NCBI RefSeq assembly: GCF_030863805.1
Contig: NZ_CP132957.1
Coordinates: 2,728,001-2,792,000, forward strand
From: Kineothrix sp. MB12-C1
GTDB lineage: Bacteria > Bacillota > Clostridia > Lachnospirales > Lachnospiraceae
Direction of reading: 5' to 3'
Length of the DNA stretch: 64,000 nt
Position numbers and translations under genes: made by a program. Below the pieces are notes generated by a model, which did no database searches, had not been told where the DNA came from, and worked only from the letters and a program-made list of their open reading frames with translations. This document shows positions 20,505 through 63,219 of the stretch, in pieces; within the stretch, counting starts at the first letter, position 1; the number at the start of each line of letters is the position of its first letter.

Positions 20505-20656
20505 CGGAGCAGCAAGTTAAGCTCCGGTCAAATGTATGAAGGAGCATTCCTGTTAAGTAACAAATGACAGGTTTGCAAAAAATGAGTGCCACCCATAGAA
20601 TAATGATTGTTAACTGGCCGGTTGACAAAATCATCGTTCGAAGGAGACACCCACAA
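20505..20656 (+). ncRNA. Candidate IS110-type bridge RNA region
   Basis: The non-coding left flank of the transposase gene is rich in stems: CGGAGC (20505-20510)/GCTCCG (20521-20526), CCTGT (20549-20553)/ACAGG (20567-20571), and a GTTAACTGG/CCGGTTGAC pair near 20610. IS110-group elements are known to encode a structured bridge RNA in this position that selects target and donor DNA. Its presence here is inferred from position and stems only. Confidence 0.35.
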
Positions 20657-21935
20657 ATGAATTGTAAACAAAATCAAAAAATCAATCAAGTAAAAGAATC
20701 AACTTTGGTAGTTGGAATCGATATCGGAAGTACAACACAGTACGCCAGAGCTTTTGACTGGCGAGGCATCGAATTAGGGAAGGTCTTTAAATTTAGCAAC
20801 AGCAGAGAAGGTTTTGACAGCTTCAAAAACTGGATGCAGTGGATACAGGACAAGAACAAAAAGTCAGATGTTATCGTAGGTATCGAACCAACAGGTCACT
20901 ACTGGTTTGACCTTGGCGCTTATCTTGAAGATGAAGGCATCCTCCTGGTTATGGTCAACCCTTATGCGGTAAAGCAGACCAAGGAACTGGATGACAACAG
21001 CCAAAGTAAGAATGACAGCAAGGATCCCAAGGTAATCGCAAAACTCGTTATAGAAGGAAGATATTGTGCACCATATACACCGGATGGGGTGTATGCAGAT
21101 CTAAGAATTATGGCAGCGAATCGGAAGAGGCTTATCAGGGAACTTACCCAGATCAAGAACAGATTTGCCAGATGGTTTGCCATATACTTTCCTGAATATA
21201 AAGATGTATTCGGGGATTATGAATCACAAAGCAGTATGCTGCTTCTAAAGAAAGCATGTACACCTGAAGCAATCGTGGGACTCGGAGCCGAGAATATAAA
21301 TCAAATCTGGCGTGATGCAAAACTGCGGCTTCGTCGGGATGAAAAGGGCAACGACCCTGTGCGAGACAGCAAAGCGTAGCATTGGCCTAAAGAAAGGCTC
21401 TTCGGCAGCTGAGTATGAAATGAAACTACTGCTCGAGGATCATGATTACAAAATGGCACAGCTTGAATCTGTTATGGAAGAAATAGAAGGCTTGTGTAAA
21501 AAGATACCCGAAAGCGAGCAGATGCTTGCCATCAAAGGTATCGGACTGATTACGGTTGCCGGATTTCTGGCTGAGATCGGTGATGCGAGGCGTTTCGAAT
21601 CACCAAGGCAGATACAAAAGCTGGCAGGACTCTCGTTAAGGGAAAATAGTTCAGGAAAGCATAAAGGACAGACGACCATAAGCAAACGAGGTCGAAGTAA
21701 GCTGCGAGCTGTACTGTTCAATGCTGCGATTCCACTGATAGCTACGAACCCGGAGTTCAATGCCCTGCATGAGTATTATACGACCAGAGCAAATAATCCA
21801 CTGAAAAAGAAGCAATCCGTGATAGCCATCAGCTGTAAGCTGATACGAATCTTTTATACTATTTTGACCAAAGGTGTATCGTATGATGCACAAAAGATGA
21901 TGTCTGACATACACAGACAGCCAGCGATAGCATAA
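20657..21935 (+). pseudogene. IS110-family transposase, +1 frameshift
   Basis: The N-terminal half (20657 to about 21330) is the DEDD RuvC-like domain: LVVGIDIGSTTQYARAFD, VGIEPTGHYW, and NDSKDPKVIAKL. The C-terminal half (to 21935) is the Transposase_20 domain: IKGIGLITVAGFLAEIGD and LAGLSLRENSSGKHKGQ. The halves lie in different frames. Removing one base near 21326-21330 (AACTGCGGCT) joins them as AKLRFVGMKRA, as expected for the family, so one inserted base inactivates the gene unless it is a read error. The ATG at 20657 follows AAGGAG and gives the normal N-terminus. Confidence 0.85.
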
Positions 21936-33060: not shown

Positions 33061-33198
33061 GTATAGTTCAGCTTTCGGCTGAGTTATAACATATATGCAC
33101 ACAAAATGCAGTAAAACTGCATTTTGGCGCTTGCAGCACTCGCAAAATTGCATACAGACGCAATTTTGACTTCGCGGTACCTAAGGCCGAATAATAAC
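33061..33198 (-). mobile_element. Family B MITE-like element in the cell-wall gene leader
   Basis: A 138-bp element flanked by the 8-bp direct repeat CTAAATAT (33053-33060 and 33199-33206). Its ends are degenerate forms of the family B inverted repeat (left GTATAGTTCAGC, right GCCGAATAATAAC). Inside are two hairpins (AAAATGCAG/CTGCATTTT, and AAAATTGC/GCAATTTT) shared with the copy at 58544. It lies between the promoter and the start codon, so the leader RNA contains all of it. Confidence 0.75.
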
Positions 33199-39287: not shown

Positions 39288-40663
39288 ACAAGATAACATT
39301 GGATGTAAAAAATGAGAAATTCCGCCGCATAGTGTTTATCGGTATGGTGATAATTTCTTTTTTCATGATTCTAATCTACAATGTGTTCACACCAGCTATG
39401 ACCGATGATTTATCTTATGGCAAAATTGTGGCAGGAGCTAATTCCTTTTTGGACTTGATCCGGCAGGAAAGGCATCAATACGCCACATGGACGGGAAGAA
39501 GTGTCAGTCATATGATTCTGAGAAGCTTTCTTATGGGCGATAAATGGCTGTTTAATATATGCAACAGTTTGGTGTTTACCGCTCTCACCCTTTTTATGTA
39601 TTACAATATCGAAAATAAGAAGAAATACGATATTTTTATCTACCTGTTGATTAATCTATTCCTTTGGACCTTTTCCGTATCCTTTGCCCAGACCGTGTTA
39701 TGGGAAACGGGAGCCTGTAATTACTTGTGGGGAAGTACAATTATCATGGGCTATATTTCCGCCTTCCGCTACTGTCTGAAAAGGAATTACAGGGGAAATC
39801 GGCAGGTAGCGCCTGCCATTGGCCTATTTCTATTGGGGATTCTTGCCGGATGGTGTAATGAGAATACATCCGGAGGCGGAATTTTACTGATCCTTATATG
39901 GATGGGATTCTATGCATGGGAGCATAAAAAGATACGCTTATGGATGGTGAGCGGGATAGCAGGCAATGCCATCGGCTTCCTTTTCATGACCTTGGCTCCG
40001 GGCAATGCCAATAGGAAGCAGTTTATGGAGGAAGAACATACGGGAATTGTGGCTATGGTATCCAGATGGCTGAAATGCAACCTCGCTATTAGGAATCACT
40101 TTTTTATTCTTCTTGCCATCTGTATTGTAGTATTTGTAATTGTAAGGCTTCAGCAGGCACAGTGGAAGAAGAGTAGGAATATGCTCATATATCTTTTTAT
40201 ATTCATAGCGACCTGTTATGCCCTAGTATTGACACCGGAACCGGTGGCACGGGCATATTTCGGCGCAGGGATATTCTTGATGGTCGGCTGTATTCAGGGG
40301 ATTTCAGATGTATCGGATAAGGATTTGTACTTGAAGGCTCTAAAAATCAGTACGACTGCTATTTTCGCCCTTTCCTTTTTCTTCACTTACATGGAGAGCG
40401 GGGCGAATCTAATGAGAATTTATCGGGAAAGTAGTGAGAGATTTGCTTATATAGAAGAACAGAAAGCAGCAGGAATTATGGATATTACGGTTCCTCTCTT
40501 ACGCCCGGCATTTGAGACGAAATACAGCGATGCCTATAATTCAGAGTTGAGTGAAGACAGCGCATATTGGGTGAATGTAGCATATGCTACTTATTATGAG
40601 GTGGATAGTATTACAGCAATACCTCGGACAGAATGGGAAGAAGAAATCTTAACTATCCCATAA
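39284..40663 (+). CDS. Polytopic membrane protein, DUF6056-like
   Basis: 459 residues with about ten membrane helices. The first extracellular loop carries TDDLSYGKIV, then TWTGRSVSH, as in GT-C-like DUF6056 proteins; the later WCNENTSGGG and LAPGNANR motifs fit the same group. These are thought to be membrane glycosyltransferases that use polyprenyl-linked sugars, but no activity is known to me. It overlaps the oxidoreductase gene by four bases. Its stop codon lies just before, or inside, a degenerate repeat element shared with the convergent gene. A related protein is at 52622. Confidence 0.75.
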   Translation: MNKITLDVKNEKFRRIVFIGMVIISFFMILIYNVFTPAMTDDLSYGKIVAGANSFLDLIRQERHQYATWTGRSVSHMILRSFLMGDKWLFNICNSLVFTALTLFMYYNIENKKKYDIFIYLLINLFLWTFSVSFAQTVLWETGACNYLWGSTIIMGYISAFRYCLKRNYRGNRQVAPAIGLFLLGILAGWCNENTSGGGILLILIWMGFYAWEHKKIRLWMVSGIAGNAIGFLFMTLAPGNANRKQFMEEEHTGIVAMVSRWLKCNLAIRNHFFILLAICIVVFVIVRLQQAQWKKSRNMLIYLFIFIATCYALVLTPEPVARAYFGAGIFLMVGCIQGISDVSDKDLYLKALKISTTAIFALSFFFTYMESGANLMRIYRESSERFAYIEEQKAAGIMDITVPLLRPAFETKYSDAYNSELSEDSAYWVNVAYATYYEVDSITAIPRTEWEEEILTIP

Positions 40664-40666
40664 CTA

Positions 40667-40720
40667 TCCAGTAGGTCTGTGCACTGGCTGTGCCCTCTCA
40701 GGGTGTGAACAGTGAGCGAT
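40667..40720. repeat. Degenerate family B repeat between convergent genes
   Basis: Sequence TAACTATCCAGTAGGTCT on the left and TGTGAACAGTGAG on the right are worn forms of the family B ends. The last codons and stop of the reverse-strand gene (LFTP and TGA) are read from the right end. No target duplication remains. Confidence 0.5.
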
Positions 40721-41939: not shown

Positions 41940-42301
41940 ATAACACCTCTGATATGTAAAATTTGAGACCCTACATCAAATTTACTGTAACATATATTCT
42001 TTTGTTTTACAATTTTAAATGCTTTGACTTTAAAGGCGGGATATATTAATATGTTACTGTTCACAGGCAAGCCTGGAAATAGTAACTTCGCCTGCCCATC
42101 TTAAGTCGCCTTCGCTGAGGGCAGGCTTTTGGCTGTTTCAGTGTACTGGCTCATGACCTATCAGCGAAGTGATAGGCCATGGTGTGAACAGTAACCTTAA
42201 TATTACTAGACGGCGGTCAATTCGCCGTCTGCACCGAGCACGGCGGCTTTGTAATATAATACCACTTCGTGCGATAAGAAAATAGGCAAGGGGAAACGGA
42301 A
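41940..42301. other. Non-coding gap with family B element and hairpin
   Basis: No gene. After the start of the reverse gene there is AT-rich DNA, then the family B element at 42053-42195, then a hairpin (AGACGGCG 42208-42215 / CGCCGTCT 42223-42230) followed by GCACCGAGCACGGCGG, which resembles part of the family C repeats. No clear promoter for the gene at 42302 was found. Confidence 0.6.
42053..42195. mobile_element. Family B MITE-like element
   Basis: 143 bp with perfect 13-bp terminal inverted repeats (GTTACTGTTCACA at 42053-42065, complement at 42183-42195). Flanks ATTAATAT and CTTAATAT match in 7 of 8 bases, as expected of an ageing 8-bp target duplication. Inner hairpins: CAGGC/GCCTG, GCCTGCCC/GGGCAGGC and CCTATCA/TGATAGG. 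No coding capacity. Confidence 0.8.
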
Positions 42302-47042: not shown

Positions 47043-48053
47043 ATGAGGAGAAATATGAAAAAGTATATTGCGATAGTTTGTTCGTTCTTGATATTCGCGC
47101 TGTTAGCGATGGGCTGCGCAGGTGCAGCGAATTCGTCTAAGGATGCAGTCGTGGCACAGGAGATACCGAGGGCTACGGAAGAAATGCAGAAAGAAAATGA
47201 AATGGCACAGGAGGAATTGCCTATCGAGGAAAATGAGGTGGTGGTTCCGCCGGAGGAATTGAGCGAGCCTGAAATAGAAGAACAGCCTATCACCGAGGAA
47301 GTACCAGAGAATACCGATGAGAATCGGCTGCAGATTGTATTTTTGGGTGACAGCATTTTAGATGGATATCGCAACGAATCGGGAATTGCTTACCTGACTG
47401 GGCAGATTTGCGACGCGGACGTATATAACTTAGCAATGGGCGGAACGACGGCAGCGTTATCGACTTATGAAAGTGCCATATATGAAGAGTGGACCTCCCG
47501 TTCATTGCAGGGGGTCGTGCATGCGATCAGCGGTAATATCGATGCAGGGATTTTGGATGGGTATCGGGCAGGAGAAGTGTTCGCCACCTGTGATTTCAGC
47601 AAGACAGATTACTTCGTGATCGGATATGGTATGAATGATTTTCTCAGCGCTATTCCTATGAACAATGATTCCAGTGTAAATCAGGAATATACGTATGTAG
47701 GTGCGCTAAGAATTGCGATCAGTACTCTTCGCAGTAATTTTCCTGAAGCGGAAATCGTATTGTGCTCCCCTAACTATGCGCAATTCTGGGGTAAGGACGG
47801 TTCTTATCTGGGCGATGGTAATATGGTAAATAATGGTGGAGGCACGTTGGTATCTTATTATCGCGTTTGCGGCAATGTTTCAGCCGACGAGAACACCTTA
47901 TTTCTGGATACCTATAATGGAATTGGTTTAGATGCCTATACGGCGGATGAATATTTAGAAGACGGTATTCACTTGTCGGAAAAAGGAAGAAGGAAATATG
48001 CAGATAAGCTTTCCAAGATTATTCTTGAATTCGAGGCCACAAGAAATAATTAA
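47043..48053 (+). CDS. SGNH/GDSL-hydrolase lipoprotein
   Basis: 336 residues. Lipoprotein signal with lipobox LLAMGC, then a Glu/Pro-rich linker of about 70 residues, then an SGNH domain with the serine motif LGDSILDGYRN, VIGYGMNDF (block III) and the Asp/His pair in DGIHLSEKG. It is anchored on the outer face and probably removes or transfers acetyl/acyl groups on a glycan or peptidoglycan. Start at 47043, nine bases after AAGGAG. Divergent from the MBOAT operon, so the two may act together. Its TAA stop lies inside the target duplication of the element that follows. Confidence 0.83.
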   Translation: MRRNMKKYIAIVCSFLIFALLAMGCAGAANSSKDAVVAQEIPRATEEMQKENEMAQEELPIEENEVVVPPEELSEPEIEEQPITEEVPENTDENRLQIVFLGDSILDGYRNESGIAYLTGQICDADVYNLAMGGTTAALSTYESAIYEEWTSRSLQGVVHAISGNIDAGILDGYRAGEVFATCDFSKTDYFVIGYGMNDFLSAIPMNNDSSVNQEYTYVGALRIAISTLRSNFPEAEIVLCSPNYAQFWGKDGSYLGDGNMVNNGGGTLVSYYRVCGNVSADENTLFLDTYNGIGLDAYTADEYLEDGIHLSEKGRRKYADKLSKIILEFEATRNN

Positions 48054-48057
48054 TAAC

Positions 48058-48192
48058 GTAACAGTTCAGATACCTTCACTGTTACATGCAAAAATCCATG
48101 AGAATCGCCTACGGCGATGGGATTTTTGCCAGCAGCATTTACGTTTTCTTACGGTCAGCGCAGCAAATGCGCAGACCTGTCTGAACTGTTAC
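48058..48192. mobile_element. Family B MITE-like element
   Basis: 135 bp with perfect 13-bp inverted ends (GTAACAGTTCAGA at 48058-48070, complement at 48180-48192) and a perfect 8-bp target duplication TTAATAAC (48050-48057 and 48193-48200). Inside are GCAAAAATCC/GGATTTTTGC and GCATTT/AAATGC hairpins. It inserted at the stop codon of the lipoprotein gene. Confidence 0.88.
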
Positions 48193-48254
48193 TTAATAAC
48201 ATTACCCCCGGAATCCTGTGTCTATTTCCGGTTGGACAACTGATGGAAAATAAT

Positions 48255-48340
48255 GTATAATATCTTAACAATATTGTACTGCGCCGAGCAAAGCGAGTGT
48301 GCAAAAAGCATACCGCGGCCGCTTGCGGCTAAGGTATAAT
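48255..48340. repeat. Family C repeat unit
   Basis: About 86 bp: a GTATAATAT start with near-complement, then GCGCCGAGCAAAGCGAGTG, TGCAAAAAGCATAC and GGCCGCTTGCGG (a CCGC/GCGG hairpin), then GTATAAT. The same units occur twice in tandem at 49629-49790. Confidence 0.75.
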
Positions 48341-48346
48341 TCTCCG

Positions 48347-48471
48347 GTAACTATTCAGCAGGTCTACGCATTTACTGCACTGACCGTAAGAATACGTGGA
48401 AAGATAAGTGAAGATTTAAAAGTTGTTATAAGATCGCTGTTGCTGTTCACGGCGAAGCTGTGAATAGTAAT
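48347..48471. repeat. Worn, inverted family B element
   Basis: Starts GTAACTATTCAGCAGGTCT and ends GCTGTGAATAGTAA, imperfect inverted ends. Its first 50 bases are the reverse complement of the right end of the copy at 48058 (shared CTTACGGTCAG and GCAAATGCGCAGACCTG-like parts). No target duplication was found. Confidence 0.65.
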
Positions 48472-57001: not shown

Positions 57002-58537
57002 ATGGGAGCAACATTTACATCCTTTTACTTTTTATGTTTTTATACAGCTATATTACTTATATATTATCTGATTCCGAAAAAAACGCAATGGATATTTTTA
57101 CTTTTATCGAGTATTTTATATTATTTGCTTTCGGGAAACGGAATACTGATTCTATATCCGCTCCTCGCATGCCTGATCGCTTATGGAGGCATCCGGCTCA
57201 TAAGTGGGACGGAAAGTGTAGGCCGTAAACGGATAGCGCTTTTCTCGGTCATTTTGTTTCTCGTGGGAGCTTTATTCATATTAAAATATGTGAATTTCGG
57301 TATTCATACGGTGAATGGAGTTGCAGGATTATTCGGAGCAGGGCGTGAAGTATTAACGGGATTTAAGTTCCTGGTGCCGTTGGGAATTTCTTTCTATACC
57401 TTTTCGATTCTGGGCTATGTGATCGATGTTTATAACGGAATTGCAATGCCGCAACGTAATCTCTTGAAGTTAACATTGTATGGAATGTATTTTCCTTCGA
57501 TTTTATCGGGCCCTATTTTGAGGTACCGGGAAGATGGAGAACAGTTTTTCGCCCCGCATCCATTTTCTTATAAAGAAGTGACCTTCGGTCTGCAGAGGAT
57601 GATATGGGGATTCTTTAAGACGATTGTCATTTCGGAGCGGATGCGGTTAATTGTGGATACGGTCTATGGAAATTACACAGACTATGCGGGTGCTTATATT
57701 TGGCTGGCAACGGTGTGCTATGCCTTCCAGCTCTATACGAACTTCTCCGGCTGTATGGATATCGTACTCGGTATGTCGCAGACCTTTGGATTGAAGCTTC
57801 CTGAGAATTTTGATACACCTTTCCTGTCCCAAAATATCTCGGAGTATTGGAGAAGATGGCATATTACCTTAGGTGTATGGATGAAAGAATATGTTTTTTA
57901 TCCGCTTTTGCGAACAGAGACCTTTTCCAGGCTTTCCAAGCGTATGAGGGAGAAATTTGGCAAGAAAAGAGGGAAACAGCTCACGACCTTTATTGCGATG
58001 TTCGTGCTTTGGTTTACCGTAGGGATTTGGCATGGAGGTAACTGGAAGTATGTAATTGGTTCCGGTTTGCTTCATTGGCTTTACATTGTGTCAGGCGAGT
58101 TGTTATCTCCGTTTTTCGATAAATGCATGAAGAGACTTTCCATAGACCCGAAGAAGGGATGGGTGGATGCCTTTCGTGTACTTCGAACCTTTTTCCTCGT
58201 CAATATCGGCTTCGTCTTTTTTCGTGCGGATAGTACGAAGGATGCTTTTTATATGATAAAGGGTGCGGTCAGTGTATGGAACCCCGGCATATTCTTCGAT
58301 GGTTCTATTTTCGGGCTTGGCTTGGATTTTATAGAGTTTACGATTGGAATTGTATCCTTACTTTTGCTTCTTATGGTATCCCTTTTGCAGCAAAAGGGAA
58401 GTGTCAGAGAGCGAATTGCAGGAAAGAGGCTTCCGGTAAGATGGGTAATCTGGTATGCGCTTTTATTCTATACGATATTGCTTGGATATTATGGACCGGG
58501 ATATAGCGCGGCTGAGTTCATCTATCAGGGATTCTAG
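57002..58537 (+). CDS. MBOAT acyltransferase, likely ACP-dependent
   Basis: 511 residues, about eleven helices. FLVPLGISFYTFSILGYVIDVYNG, ILSGPILRYRE, EYWRRWHITLGVWMKEYVFYPL and the catalytic-His motif FTVGIWHGGNW are typical of DltB/AlgI proteins. Its place beside an FkbH-like enzyme and an acyl carrier protein suggests it takes a glyceryl-type group from the carrier, as DltB takes D-alanine from DltC. AAAGGA lies nine bases before the ATG. A family B element has inserted six bases after its stop codon. Confidence 0.9.
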   Translation: MGATFTSFYFLCFYTAILLIYYLIPKKTQWIFLLLSSILYYLLSGNGILILYPLLACLIAYGGIRLISGTESVGRKRIALFSVILFLVGALFILKYVNFGIHTVNGVAGLFGAGREVLTGFKFLVPLGISFYTFSILGYVIDVYNGIAMPQRNLLKLTLYGMYFPSILSGPILRYREDGEQFFAPHPFSYKEVTFGLQRMIWGFFKTIVISERMRLIVDTVYGNYTDYAGAYIWLATVCYAFQLYTNFSGCMDIVLGMSQTFGLKLPENFDTPFLSQNISEYWRRWHITLGVWMKEYVFYPLLRTETFSRLSKRMREKFGKKRGKQLTTFIAMFVLWFTVGIWHGGNWKYVIGSGLLHWLYIVSGELLSPFFDKCMKRLSIDPKKGWVDAFRVLRTFFLVNIGFVFFRADSTKDAFYMIKGAVSVWNPGIFFDGSIFGLGLDFIEFTIGIVSLLLLLMVSLLQQKGSVRERIAGKRLPVRWVIWYALLFYTILLGYYGPGYSAAEFIYQGF

Positions 58538-58543
58538 GTGCAT

Positions 58544-58684
58544 GTTACTGTTCACACCTATGGTGTTCACAGCAACAATATCACACAAATTGCATAAAGA
58601 ACATGCAATTTGGCGACCGAAGCACTCGCAAAATCGCATAGAAAGCGATTTTGACTTCGCGGAATAGTGGCTGTGAACAGTAAC
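58544..58684. mobile_element. Family B MITE-like element, best preserved
   Basis: 141 bp with perfect 13-bp inverted ends (GTTACTGTTCACA at 58544-58556, complement at 58672-58684), identical to those at 42053, and a perfect 8-bp target duplication AGGTGCAT (58536-58543 and 58685-58692). Inner hairpins ATTGCAT/ATGCAAT and AAAATCGC/GCGATTTT are shared with the copy at 33061. Confidence 0.92.
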
Positions 58685-58692
58685 AGGTGCAT

Positions 58693-58959
58693 TCTGCTGC
58701 TGTGAATAGTTACACTATTTTAATGGACGGTCAGGAGATATTCTGATAAAATGATACCAGGGTCAAAAGGTTATATGTTTCATGCTTGCATGAAAAAATA
58801 TAACTTTGGGACCCGCAAAACATGAGAAAGTAGCCCAAGTAGGGCGGATTTCGAAGGTTTTAGGATTGTGAGAGCACAAAGTGCGTAGCAATCCGTAGGT
58901 ATCATAGGGGGAAAATACCTTTTGACCCTAGAGACATAAAATGAGATGGAGAAATCAAG
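58693..58959. other. Rest of the repeat-filled gap before the GT2 gene
   Basis: No gene. It contains a lone family B end (TGTGAATAGTTAC, 58701-58713), about 37 unique bases, the family A copy at 58751-58929, and a short leader before the GT2 start. No clear promoter was found. Confidence 0.55.
58751..58929. repeat. Family A repeat, longest copy
   Basis: 179 bp. ATGATACC (58751-58758) matches GGTATCAT (58898-58905), and AGGGTCAAAAGGT (58759-58771) is exactly complementary to 58917-58929. The second arm can also fold locally with the ATATAACTTTGGGACCC side, giving a long hairpin. Core GAGAGCACAAAGTGCGTAG as in the other copies. Confidence 0.85.
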
Positions 58960-59898
58960 ATGGATAAGATTGCAGTTTTGGTCCCATGTTATAATGAGGA
59001 GAAGACGATTGCCAAGGTAGTGGCCGATGCGAAAAAGGCGTTACCGGAGGCGGTGATTTATGTATATGATAACAATTCTACAGATCGTACGGTGGAACTT
59101 GCTGCGGAGGCAGGGGCCGTGGTGCGGCATGAATATATGCAAGGCAAGGGGAATGTAATTCGCAGAATGTTTCGTGAAATCCATGCACAGTGCTATGTGA
59201 TGGTGGATGGAGATGACACTTATCCCATGGAATATGCCCCTGAAATGGTGGAAAAGGTGTTGGAACATCATGCGGATATGGTAGTGGGAGACCGCCTTTC
59301 TTCCACATATTTTACCGAGAACAAAAGACCTTTTCACAACATGGGAAATAGTCTGGTAAGAGGATCGATCAATCATTTGTTCGGATGCGAGATTAAAGAT
59401 ATTATGACAGGGTTCCGTGCATTTAGTTATGGGTTCGTGAAGACCTTTCCTGTGCTTTCCAAGGGCTTTGAGATAGAGACAGAAATGACGATCCATGCAG
59501 TTTCCAACAATATGCAGATTGAAAATGTGATTGTCGATTACCGTGACAGACCTGAGGGCAGCGAATCCAAGTTAAATACTTACTCGGACGGTATGCGTGT
59601 GCTTGGAACAATCGGGCGGCTATATAAAGATTATAAGCCTTTTGGCTTTTTCTCTTTATTATCATTTGGACTGGCTATTATCGCTATTGTTTTCTTTATT
59701 CCAATACTGATTGACTTTATCAGGACGGGGGTAGTGGAACGCTTTCCTACGTTATTTGTCTGTTGCTTTGTTATGCTGGCAGCAGTTCAGGCTTTTTTCG
59801 CAGGTATGATTCTGTCCAATATGGCATTGAAGAATAGAAGAGATTTTGAATTCCGATTGAATATGATTCAGGGGAAAATGAATGATGATGTGGATTGA
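58960..59898 (+). CDS. Polyprenyl-phosphate glycosyltransferase (GT2)
   Basis: 312 residues. GT-A fold: IAVLVPCYNEEKTIAKVV, VYVYDNNSTDRTVELA, and the DxD motif MVDGDDTYP. Two helices follow near 225-300 (LLSFGLAIIAIVFFIPILI and FVCCFVMLAAVQAFFAGMIL). This is the layout of enzymes that load a sugar on polyprenyl phosphate; the donor is unknown. The two polytopic proteins downstream may use its product. It overlaps the next gene by 17 bases. Confidence 0.87.
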   Translation: MDKIAVLVPCYNEEKTIAKVVADAKKALPEAVIYVYDNNSTDRTVELAAEAGAVVRHEYMQGKGNVIRRMFREIHAQCYVMVDGDDTYPMEYAPEMVEKVLEHHADMVVGDRLSSTYFTENKRPFHNMGNSLVRGSINHLFGCEIKDIMTGFRAFSYGFVKTFPVLSKGFEIETEMTIHAVSNNMQIENVIVDYRDRPEGSESKLNTYSDGMRVLGTIGRLYKDYKPFGFFSLLSFGLAIIAIVFFIPILIDFIRTGVVERFPTLFVCCFVMLAAVQAFFAGMILSNMALKNRRDFEFRLNMIQGKMNDDVD

Positions 59899-61306: not shown

Positions 61307-63067
61307 ATGGCTGCGATAAAGAAAGTATTTAGCTATTGGTATCTTATACTTATTGCGATGTTTTTCTTATGTACATCGGCACTTTACCTATGGGTCGGCG
61401 AAGGAAGCTATATCGCGGTTCACGATAATCTGGATTTGTTCGTAGCTCAGTTCCAAATGATGAAAAATACAGGCAGTTTTTTCGCCCATGGGGTGGATGT
61501 GCCATTTCTTGGCGGAATCAGCAGAGATACCCTCCCTTCGGAATTCTCCCTTTATTCAGTACTGTATATGGTACTTCCTTCCTTCGCGGCATACATAATG
61601 GGGTATTTTTTGAAGATAGTAATTGCGATAGCATCCGTATGGCTGCTCGCAAGTGATTGGTACGGGGCGCAGATGAAGAAGTACCGGCCGCTGGTGATGT
61701 TGCTCGGATTCGCTTATGGAATCTTAAATGTTTTTCCAGCCTTTGGAATTCCTTTTGCATCCATTCCGCTGGTAGTTTATTTACTTCGCAAAATCTATAA
61801 AGAAGCATCTGTTCGCTGGTATCTTGCTCTTTTTTGTTATCCTTTTTTATCTTATTTTTCTTATTTCGGCTTCTTTATTCTGGCTTATCTTGTGGTGGGA
61901 ATGATATGGCTGAGTATTCGGGATAAAAAAGTATCTCTTTCTTTACTGCTTGGTCTTATTGTGCTTTCTGCCGGTTACGTAGTATTTGAATATCGTTTAT
62001 TTGGAATGATGTTGTTGGGCGGTGAGGAAACAATCCGATCAACAATAGTGGAGGCGGACTTGTCTGCGAAAGAAGTGGCGGAGCAGATTGTGGATGTGTG
62101 GAAAAAAGGTATGTTCCATGCGGAAAGTATGCATACAAAGCTGGTGCTGCCTATTTGTACCCTTTATTTCTTCTATTTGAACGGACGATATATAGTAAAA
62201 AGAAATATAAAAGGCGTCTTCCATGATATATATAATCTAGTGATGCTTATCCTTTTATTTAACAGCATTATATATGGGATTTATAATTGGGGTGATTTTC
62301 GGAGACTTGTGGAAACCCTTTTGCCGCCGCTTAAAGGATTTCAGTTTAACCGGACTATATTTTTCAGTCCGTTCTTGTGGTATGCCGCTTTCTTTCTTAT
62401 TCTGCAAAGGGTCTATGATATCCCCGTTTCGCTTACAAAGAAAGTGGGATATCAAAGGGCTTTGTCCTGGTTAGCCAATGGGTTGGCTCTCGCGGCCGTT
62501 GCTGTGATTCTTTTCACCCCAAGTAAGTATAACGATTGGCGTGCTACGTGCAAAAATACGGCGCTGGAGCTTCTGAAAGGCAAAGTGAGCGATAGTATGT
62601 CCTATGGTGAATTCTACTCTGTGGAGTTATTTGAGGAAATAAAAAAAGACATTAACTATCAGGAGGAATGGTCGGTGGCATATGGTATTCATCCGGCTGT
62701 GCTTGAGTATAATGGCATTGCGACTTTGGATGGCTATCTTGGCTTTTATTCCAGTGAGTATAAGGCGGATTTCCGTAAGATGATTGCCCCCGCCTTGGAA
62801 AGGGTGGAGGCGAGTCGTATTTATTATGATGATTGGGGAGCCAGGGCATATCTGTATCCGGGAACAGATTTATCAGTGGTAAGCGCTACTTGGTCGATGG
62901 CGGTAACGGATTATGATTTGTATATGGATACGGAGGCTTTCCGGGCGTTGGGCGGCAAGTATATCTTTTCCCGTATTGAACTTGGAAATGCTCAGGAACT
63001 GGGGCTTACGTCAGTAGGAAGCTATGCGCGTCCCGGTTCACCCTATGTCATTTATTTATATGAATGA
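61307..63067 (+). CDS. Polytopic membrane protein, DUF6044-like
   Basis: 586 residues with about twelve helices and an extracellular C-terminal part. The first outer loop has YIAVHDNLDLFVAQFQMMK, then FLGGISRDTLPSEFS, the pattern of DUF6044 proteins, which I recall as GT-C-like surface-glycan proteins. The predicted role is transfer of a polyprenyl-linked sugar on the outer face. Follows the previous gene after six bases with no strong binding site of its own. Its TGA stop lies inside the start of a family A repeat. Confidence 0.75.
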   Translation: MAAIKKVFSYWYLILIAMFFLCTSALYLWVGEGSYIAVHDNLDLFVAQFQMMKNTGSFFAHGVDVPFLGGISRDTLPSEFSLYSVLYMVLPSFAAYIMGYFLKIVIAIASVWLLASDWYGAQMKKYRPLVMLLGFAYGILNVFPAFGIPFASIPLVVYLLRKIYKEASVRWYLALFCYPFLSYFSYFGFFILAYLVVGMIWLSIRDKKVSLSLLLGLIVLSAGYVVFEYRLFGMMLLGGEETIRSTIVEADLSAKEVAEQIVDVWKKGMFHAESMHTKLVLPICTLYFFYLNGRYIVKRNIKGVFHDIYNLVMLILLFNSIIYGIYNWGDFRRLVETLLPPLKGFQFNRTIFFSPFLWYAAFFLILQRVYDIPVSLTKKVGYQRALSWLANGLALAAVAVILFTPSKYNDWRATCKNTALELLKGKVSDSMSYGEFYSVELFEEIKKDINYQEEWSVAYGIHPAVLEYNGIATLDGYLGFYSSEYKADFRKMIAPALERVEASRIYYDDWGARAYLYPGTDLSVVSATWSMAVTDYDLYMDTEAFRALGGKYIFSRIELGNAQELGLTSVGSYARPGSPYVIYLYE

Positions 63068-63160
63068 TACCAGGGTCAAAAGGTCAGGTGTTTCATGCTA
63101 GCGAGAGCACAAAGTGTGTAGTGACCGCAGGTATCATGGGGCCAAAATACCCTTTGCCCT
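63064..63160. repeat. Family A repeat, third copy
   Basis: Starts ATGATACCAGGGTCAAAAGG, with GGTATCAT at 63130-63137 and a worn right arm ATACCCTTTGCCCT. Core GAGAGCACAAAGTGTGTAG. The stop codon of the upstream gene (63065-63067) is part of its first eight bases. Confidence 0.75.
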
Positions 63161-63175
63161 CAACAGCATCTGAAT

Positions 63176-63219
63176 GTAACGCTCAGTAGGTCAGAGTATT
63201 TACTGTGCTGAACAGTTGC
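63176..63219. repeat. Small worn family B repeat
   Basis: Starts GTAACGCTCAGTAGGTCAG and ends CTGAACAGTTGC, imperfect inverted ends 44 bp apart, with a TATTTACTGTGCTGA part as in the copy at 48347. No target duplication. Confidence 0.45.

Follow-up and report, generated by a model that had tools for sequence, protein, structure and literature searches.

The intergenic element directly downstream of the MBOAT O-acyltransferase gene (57002-58537) of Kineothrix sp. MB12-C1 raises the question of whether it is a mobile element and, if so, which enzyme moved it. Coordinates refer to the window, the whole stretch of 64,000 nucleotides analysed here. At 58544-58684 lies a 141-bp sequence with GTTACTGTTCACA at both ends and 0 mismatches between the 13-bp inverted ends. 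It is framed by an exact 8-bp duplication, AGGTGCAT, the left copy of which begins at 58536 with AG, the final two bases of the MBOAT stop codon TAG. No ORF of at least 100 aa overlaps the element. The original prediction, a non-coding 141-bp unit with perfect inverted ends and exact 8-bp flanks, is therefore an accurate description of the locus. Three full-length relatives of this element occur elsewhere in the genome at 95–98% identity. The element has no Rfam match at the gathering threshold; the sole match in the window is a Clostridiales-1 RNA (RF01699, 123.8 bits) at 58752-58904, just downstream of the element. A Clostridiales-1 look-alike at approximately 63064-63170, recognized by eye, falls below gathering-threshold reporting. 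Features of this element and of the other copies in the window are collected in Table 1.

Table 1 Features of the MITE at 58544 and of related copies in the window.
Feature	Position	Strand	Evidence or remark
Worn 138-bp MITE with the core of the 58544 element but other ends	33061..33198	+	Flanked left and right by exact CTAAATAT (by eye)
Worn family piece, one end with 2 mismatches	40660..40717	+	By eye
143-bp MITE, ends as in the 58544 element, different core, 34-bp left hairpin	42053..42195	+	Flanks 7/8
135-bp MITE, end type GTAACAGTTCAGA, 28-bp left hairpin, exact duplication	48058..48192	+	
Worn piece of the 48058 type	48347..48395	+	By eye, against other copies
33-bp solo hairpin, no duplication (7/8 flank positions differ)	48439..48471	-	
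Left 8-bp target duplication AGGTGCAT	58536..58543	.	Sequence read
141-bp MITE, end type GTTACTGTTCACA	58544..58684	+	End match and flanking duplication
33-bp left-end hairpin, left end facing internal end copy R'	58544..58576	+	
Internal hairpin H1, 58586-58595 with 58603-58612, compensated changes among 18 copies	58586..58612	+	
Internal hairpin H3, 58629-58637 with 58645-58653, compensated changes among 18 copies	58629..58653	+	
Right 13-bp end	58672..58684	-	End match
Right 8-bp target duplication AGGTGCAT	58685..58692	.	Sequence read
Worn short derivative, ~44 bp, no duplication	63176..63219	+	By eye

Eight end matches with up to 2 mismatches were found in the window, compared with a mean of 0.78 and a maximum of 3 in 100 shuffles. 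The predicted copy at 42053-42195 has identical ends, and its flanks, ATTAATAT and CTTAATAT, match at 7 of 8 positions. Both predicted variants were also recovered: the 48058-48192 element, whose ends read GTAACAGTTCAGA and TCTGAACTGTTAC between two exact copies of TTAATAAC, stands close behind the stop codon of a gene ending at 48053, and the 33061-33198 element has its exact duplication when read by eye. The worn copies proposed near 40667, 48347, and 63176 look, by eye, like worn pieces of the 48058 type. A full-copy size of 135–143 bp had been given as general; it applies in the window only, as duplication-flanked copies in the loci of this genome that were examined range from 82 to 165 bp, with additional hairpins of 27–34 bp. 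The IS110-type transposase named as the only one in the window was confirmed by a PF01548 match in 20564-21376, and Pfam recognized no second transposase family among the 29 window proteins scanned. This IS110-type gene, at 20564-21935, is apparently split into overlapping ORFs at 20564-21379 (PF01548) and 21312-21935. A repeat unit of ~80 bp at 48251-48341 recurs in Kineothrix alysoides (G001), where three copies stand in tandem and others lie at several further places.

The original prediction had also proposed searching the whole genome, a single contig of 3.94 Mb, with the end sequence. Ends of the GTTACTGTTCACA type (at most 1 mismatch) number 82, versus 4 for the reversed control, and a second end type, GTAACAGTTCAG, gives 179 matches versus 20. 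Inward-facing ends 22–260 bp apart were paired in the loci L001-L080 and L201-L260 of this genome together with the window, yielding 125 distinct end pairs. An 8-bp duplication with at most 1 mismatch flanks 46 of these pairs and is exact in 27. When the left flank is moved by 1, 2, 3, -1, or -2 bases, 1, 0, 0, 0, and 0 duplications remain, respectively, and among the same 125 pairs exact duplications of 6, 7, 9, or 10 bp are absent and one of 5 bp occurs. The 79 pairs that lack a duplication belong to a total that counts nested and worn pairs. The 33061 copy, whose left end has more mismatches than allowed, is not counted in the 46. Target sites are A+T-rich, with 74% A+T in the 27 exact targets compared with 60% in the window. 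These results bear out the MITE-like family, its 13-bp inverted ends and 8-bp duplications, and its many genome copies, including further duplicated copies beyond the window. At L259:1493-1791, two differing elements stand in tandem with three CTTTTATT copies separating and flanking them. In another genome of the family, G126, element ends are repeated in tandem at a 33-bp period (L330:289-367; G126:C37:38988-39066).

Relatives possess the corresponding sites without the elements. The 48058 element is absent at all eight orthologous gene ends (8 loci from 8 genomes), and TTAATA of its target is kept once behind the gene in two of these loci (G001, G002). The 42053 element is absent in 3/3 genomes, where the flanks are too diverged to reveal a single target copy. 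Behind the MBOAT gene, the 58544 element is absent in all nine relatives inspected, from 78 fetched. Orthologous sites lacking the insertion, sought after the original prediction's proposal of an empty-site check, were thus seen for all three elements, and the palindromes are not constant occupants of orthologous positions. In Kineothrix alysoides, a 27-bp family hairpin (L082:5624-5650) lies 90 bp behind the orthologous MBOAT stop codon and is lengthened by ATGT/ACAT into a larger palindrome.

Among the 46 duplicated copies, 38 could be placed relative to genes (8 were in loci too short), and all 38 lie between ORFs of at least 120 aa; some overlap an ORF edge by up to 33 bp, with none inside by the rule used. 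None of the 33 copies having both neighbours lies between convergent genes. A gene ends towards the copy in 25 of these 33, and 11 of the 25 lie no more than 12 bp from the stop codon. Uniform placement predicts 3.8 (P 3.5e-5, simulation), an excess that depends on crude ORF calls and on a 12-bp limit picked after the distances were seen. Start codons show no excess (5/33 versus 4.5 expected). Placement behind stop codons could reflect a target preference or selection against insertions elsewhere. It also fits the idea that these palindromes are not mobile at all, being regulatory or terminator structures inherited in place, as do the compensated changes described below and the one terminator-like site found inside the 48058 element. 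However, the exact 8-bp duplications and the orthologous sites without elements run counter to inheritance in place. For copies with both exact duplications and empty sites that explanation is already contradicted, and overall we consider it extremely improbable. Terminators as a general cargo of the MITEs are not supported by the two places scanned: none was found in 58500-58960, and one lies inside the 48058 element.

Most full copies share a common plan. They start with a hairpin in which the left end faces an internal end copy, R', 26–36 bp in, followed by internal hairpins and then the right end, R. Because R' is an extra end copy facing the left end, R' and R form direct repeats. With the better orientation taken for each copy, R' agrees with the left end at 7 or more of 10 positions in 38 of 52 duplication-flanked full or partial copies (31 from this genome and 21 from others). 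Pairing was examined in an alignment (A2) of 18 copies from this genome with one core; L008, L009, L010, L012, and L016, which have a different middle, are among those excluded. With the left end paired with R', 84.9% of cells pair, compared with 80.1% in shuffles, and none of 500 shuffles was as high. Pairs changed on both sides number 11 versus 5.9 in shuffles, and the number of pair types was reached by 30/500 shuffles. Slid versions pair in 27–40% of cells, a comparison that favours the structure because it was drawn from 1 of the 18 rows. Considered separately, the left hairpin pairs in 74.8% of cells, with one pair failing in 14/18 copies, the left end with the right end in 91.7%, and H1 and H3 in 93.8% and 92.8%. 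The helices of these elements carry compensated changes. A model, R2, was set aside for its poor RNAalifold structure. Like cores occur on variant ends in other genomes of the family, one in G161 and G066 and another in G126 and G018.

We propose, with a probability of roughly 0.75, that the MITEs owe their movement to transposases acting in trans from a divergent branch of the IS66 family, the own elements of which have GTTAC ends and make 8-bp duplications. The weaker pairing of the left hairpin, compared with that of left end and right end, counts against this proposal. Such an enzyme would have moved the copies in MB12-C1 and probably resided in the host lineage for a time before being lost. 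Evidence for this comes from autonomous elements in other genomes. One of these, L189 (2358 bp), has ends GTTACTGTTCACACCC and GTTACTGTTCAGACGC with exact GCCGGAAT on both sides, and another, L172 (2287 bp), has 22-bp perfect inverted ends, GTTACAATTCACGGCCTAGCCG, with exact AACGGTTC on both sides. L191 (2293 bp) carries GTTACTGTTCACACCC at both ends, with one flank beyond the contig and a transposase frame that is not whole. The 13-bp MITE end is matched at 13/13 bases by one end of L189 and both ends of L191; the end of L172 is a variant. The original prediction had called for an autonomous IS with the same ends and 8-bp duplications, and L189 answers to this with an identical end on one side; the autonomous elements found are all in other genomes. 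L164, L192, and L194 have similar GTTAC ends and no duplication, so that a duplication frames 2 of the 5 GTTAC-branch elements for which both ends and both flanks could be read (L172, L189). This low share counts against the proposed partner, as does the make-up of the autonomous elements, which contain no R' and have little in common with the MITEs beyond ~15 bp of end.

IS66 elements are recognized by ends beginning GTAA and carry the accessory genes tnpA and tnpB. The autonomous partner resembles them in its PF03050 DDE transposase, with the proteins of L172 and L164 passing that cut-off (65.6 and 78.5 bits), and in the 8-bp duplication of L172 and L189. It differs in its GTTAC ends (L164, L172, L189, L191, L192, L194), whereas other IS66 copies in these genomes have GTAAG (L169, L261, L263). 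The same two proteins score 149.7 and 153.5 bits against the NCBIfam IS66 transposase model, under the cut-off of 180, indicating that the GTTAC branch is a divergent relative and not a canonical IS66 member. A small upstream ORF of 112, 89, and 99 aa is present in L172, L189, and L191, respectively; that of L172, the one scanned, has no Pfam or NCBIfam match, a possible further difference from the family. A scan of 60 IS66-type loci, many of them partial, for an exact 8-bp duplication with inverted ends returned L169, L172, L189, and, weakly, L262. L261 and L263 have GTAAGCGTCAAATA ends and no duplication, and L169, with its exact 8-bp duplication, is outside the tree. In this tree of 23 IS66-type proteins, the six GTTAC-ended transposases and L190, the end of which was not read clearly, form one group (support 100/99) within an 11-row side (support 100/100); the remaining 12 rows include L261 and L263. 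The ends of L197, which falls on the 11-row side outside the GTTAC group, read GTAACTGTTCAGAAC and GTATCTGTTCAGAAC, near the second MITE end type; this element has no duplication.

The enzyme was found outside the genomes that are rich in the repeats. PF03050 has no match in the 3.94-Mb MB12-C1 genome at E<=0.001, and a GTTAC-branch profile (A1), built from two proteins 44% identical, has none at E<=1e-30. The expectation that the mobilizing enzyme would be elsewhere in this genome fails for IS66, and an IS66 mobilizer still present there was rejected for lack of a PF03050 match. An autonomous copy in MB12-C1 was likewise rejected, with no long duplicated end pair in the loci examined (up to 3.5 kb, and up to 8 kb for five sources). 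Within the genus, 8 of 16 genomes are positive for PF03050, and MB12-C1 is negative. Across 200 genomes of the family, profile A1 matched ten at E<=1e-30, MB12-C1 not among them, whereas 21 genomes, MB12-C1 included, show enrichment of the end motif, with at least 18 matches each and no more than 8 control matches (305 versus 0 in G126). The GTTAC-branch enzyme occurs at E<=1e-30 in 0/21 end-rich genomes versus 10/179 others; the repeats are thus abundant where this enzyme is absent. Any PF03050 match was found in 8 of 20 end-rich genomes, with MB12-C1 excluded. This absence could be due to loss after a burst, to draft assemblies losing multi-copy elements, or to another enzyme.

Were a transposase of another family to have moved the MITEs in end-rich genomes with 8-bp duplications, their likeness to IS66 ends would reflect shared end ancestry or convergence. 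The 0/21 result agrees with such an enzyme, as do the 12/20 end-rich genomes without a PF03050 match, G126 and its 305 ends among them. Yet an 8-bp duplication accompanies the identical 13-bp end on one side of L189 and the variant end of L172, L191 bears the identical end twice with one flank beyond the contig, and the second end type resembles L197 of the wider IS66 branch, though that element is without a duplication. Moreover, no longer end-paired, duplicated element was present in 41 G126 loci (end pairs up to 3 kb apart in 30 and up to 4 kb in 11), which make up part of that genome. We regard a mobilizer from another family as rather unlikely and the IS66 branch as the likely partner of a real MITE family in the present host of which no IS66 enzyme was found. 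One candidate autonomous element in G126, with ends 894 bp apart, was discarded: it holds a response-regulator-like ORF (by eye), lacks a duplication, and has as its right end that of a 132-bp MITE.

The family also includes hairpins that stand alone. A hairpin covariance model gave 100 matches in the MB12-C1 genome (E<=1, both strands) among 150 scored of 1571 first-look candidates, corresponding by hand count to about 57 places among those scored. Hairpins of 26–34 bp account for 15/46 duplication-flanked copies (at most 1 mismatch) in MB12-C1 and 8/29 in other genomes, for a total of 23. We infer that these solo hairpins are best read as deletion remnants of full MITEs. Short internal repeats, R' and R or others, would let slippage remove the middle of an element, and the 26–34 bp hairpin left behind would keep the 8-bp duplication around it. 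In G126, six solos have the length of the left hairpin, 26 bp. Copies of 132, 115, 54, 51, 47, and 26 bp in this genome each have a duplication with at most 1 mismatch, and the shortened copies are without internal stretches, with junctions that by eye lie near short repeats. For four solos of 27 bp in MB12-C1, the full copies listed from that genome include none whose left hairpin agrees in both length and end type, which counts against deletion. Comparison of R' with R gave a Fisher P of 0.07, and that of R' with solo arms gave 0.48, and neither value separates deletion from movement.

The 26–34 bp hairpins might instead be mobile units that transposed with 8-bp duplications, the long MITEs having been assembled from them. 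Movement of this kind would account for the 23 solos with duplications and for two identical 26-bp solos at differing targets in G126 (L304, L336). Ends 26 bp apart, however, are generally hard to unite in a transposase complex, the 15 solos of MB12-C1 are all different whereas full copies include near-identical ones, and shortened copies of graded length exist with duplications. We therefore consider transposing hairpins unlikely. Quite unlikely, in our judgement, is the wider proposal that the hairpins are transposing units, which would place them among the smallest DNA transposons, and that the family is at the same time a structure-selected mobile 3'-end module, with unrelated paired-hairpin cores on IS66-branch ends across genera, settling preferentially right behind stop codons.

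The proposed formation of the solos by deletion has precedents. In Tn10 nearly precise excision and in solo LTRs, the interior is lost by deletion at internal repeats, and a short remnant stays within the original duplication. The solo hairpins, for which deletion is deduced from sequence alone, would similarly be remnants inside the original target duplication; the MITE differs in carrying its own internal end copy, R'. REP/REPIN palindromes and the very small mobile elements of cyanobacteria are dispersed palindromes of 20–40 bp, and REP/REPIN sequences are associated with a REP-associated tyrosine transposase. The present hairpins are also dispersed palindromes in that size range, but they are set in 8-bp target duplications and have a likely partner of IS66 type, and the duplications argue against REP/REPIN membership.

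Comparable bacterial MITEs include MITEPye1, which is foldable and has ends like those of IS1182 (PMC11578231), and MITEPsy1, with a 4-nt duplication (PMC3189936). As far as the accessible portions of these sources describe them, both resemble the present family in being short, with inverted ends, a target duplication, and no gene. By the same portions, the present family stands apart in its IS66-branch ends, 8-bp duplication, left hairpin, duplicated solo hairpins, and a set of cores that recur with related ends in different genera. In the accessible portions of the open-licence PubMed Central papers PMC3189936, PMC11578231, PMC9769881, PMC2246112, PMC6053426, PMC12888890, PMC9208149, PMC6232779, PMC12024412, and PMC6807381, we found no MITE tied to IS66. 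The corresponding portions of a review of prokaryotic MITEs (PMC10969869) yielded nothing on IS66, Lachnospiraceae or Clostridia, 8 bp, hairpins, or stop codons. MITEs are already known as a kind; what is new here is the left hairpin, the duplicated solo hairpins, the cores across genera, and the placement behind stop codons.

A puzzle posed by this family is that the genomes richest in its repeats are without a matching GTTAC-branch enzyme. The IS66 link gives the small palindromic repeats of several Lachnospiraceae genera a likely source, and the deletion route suggests how REP-like solo hairpins with their target duplications intact could arise from decaying MITEs.
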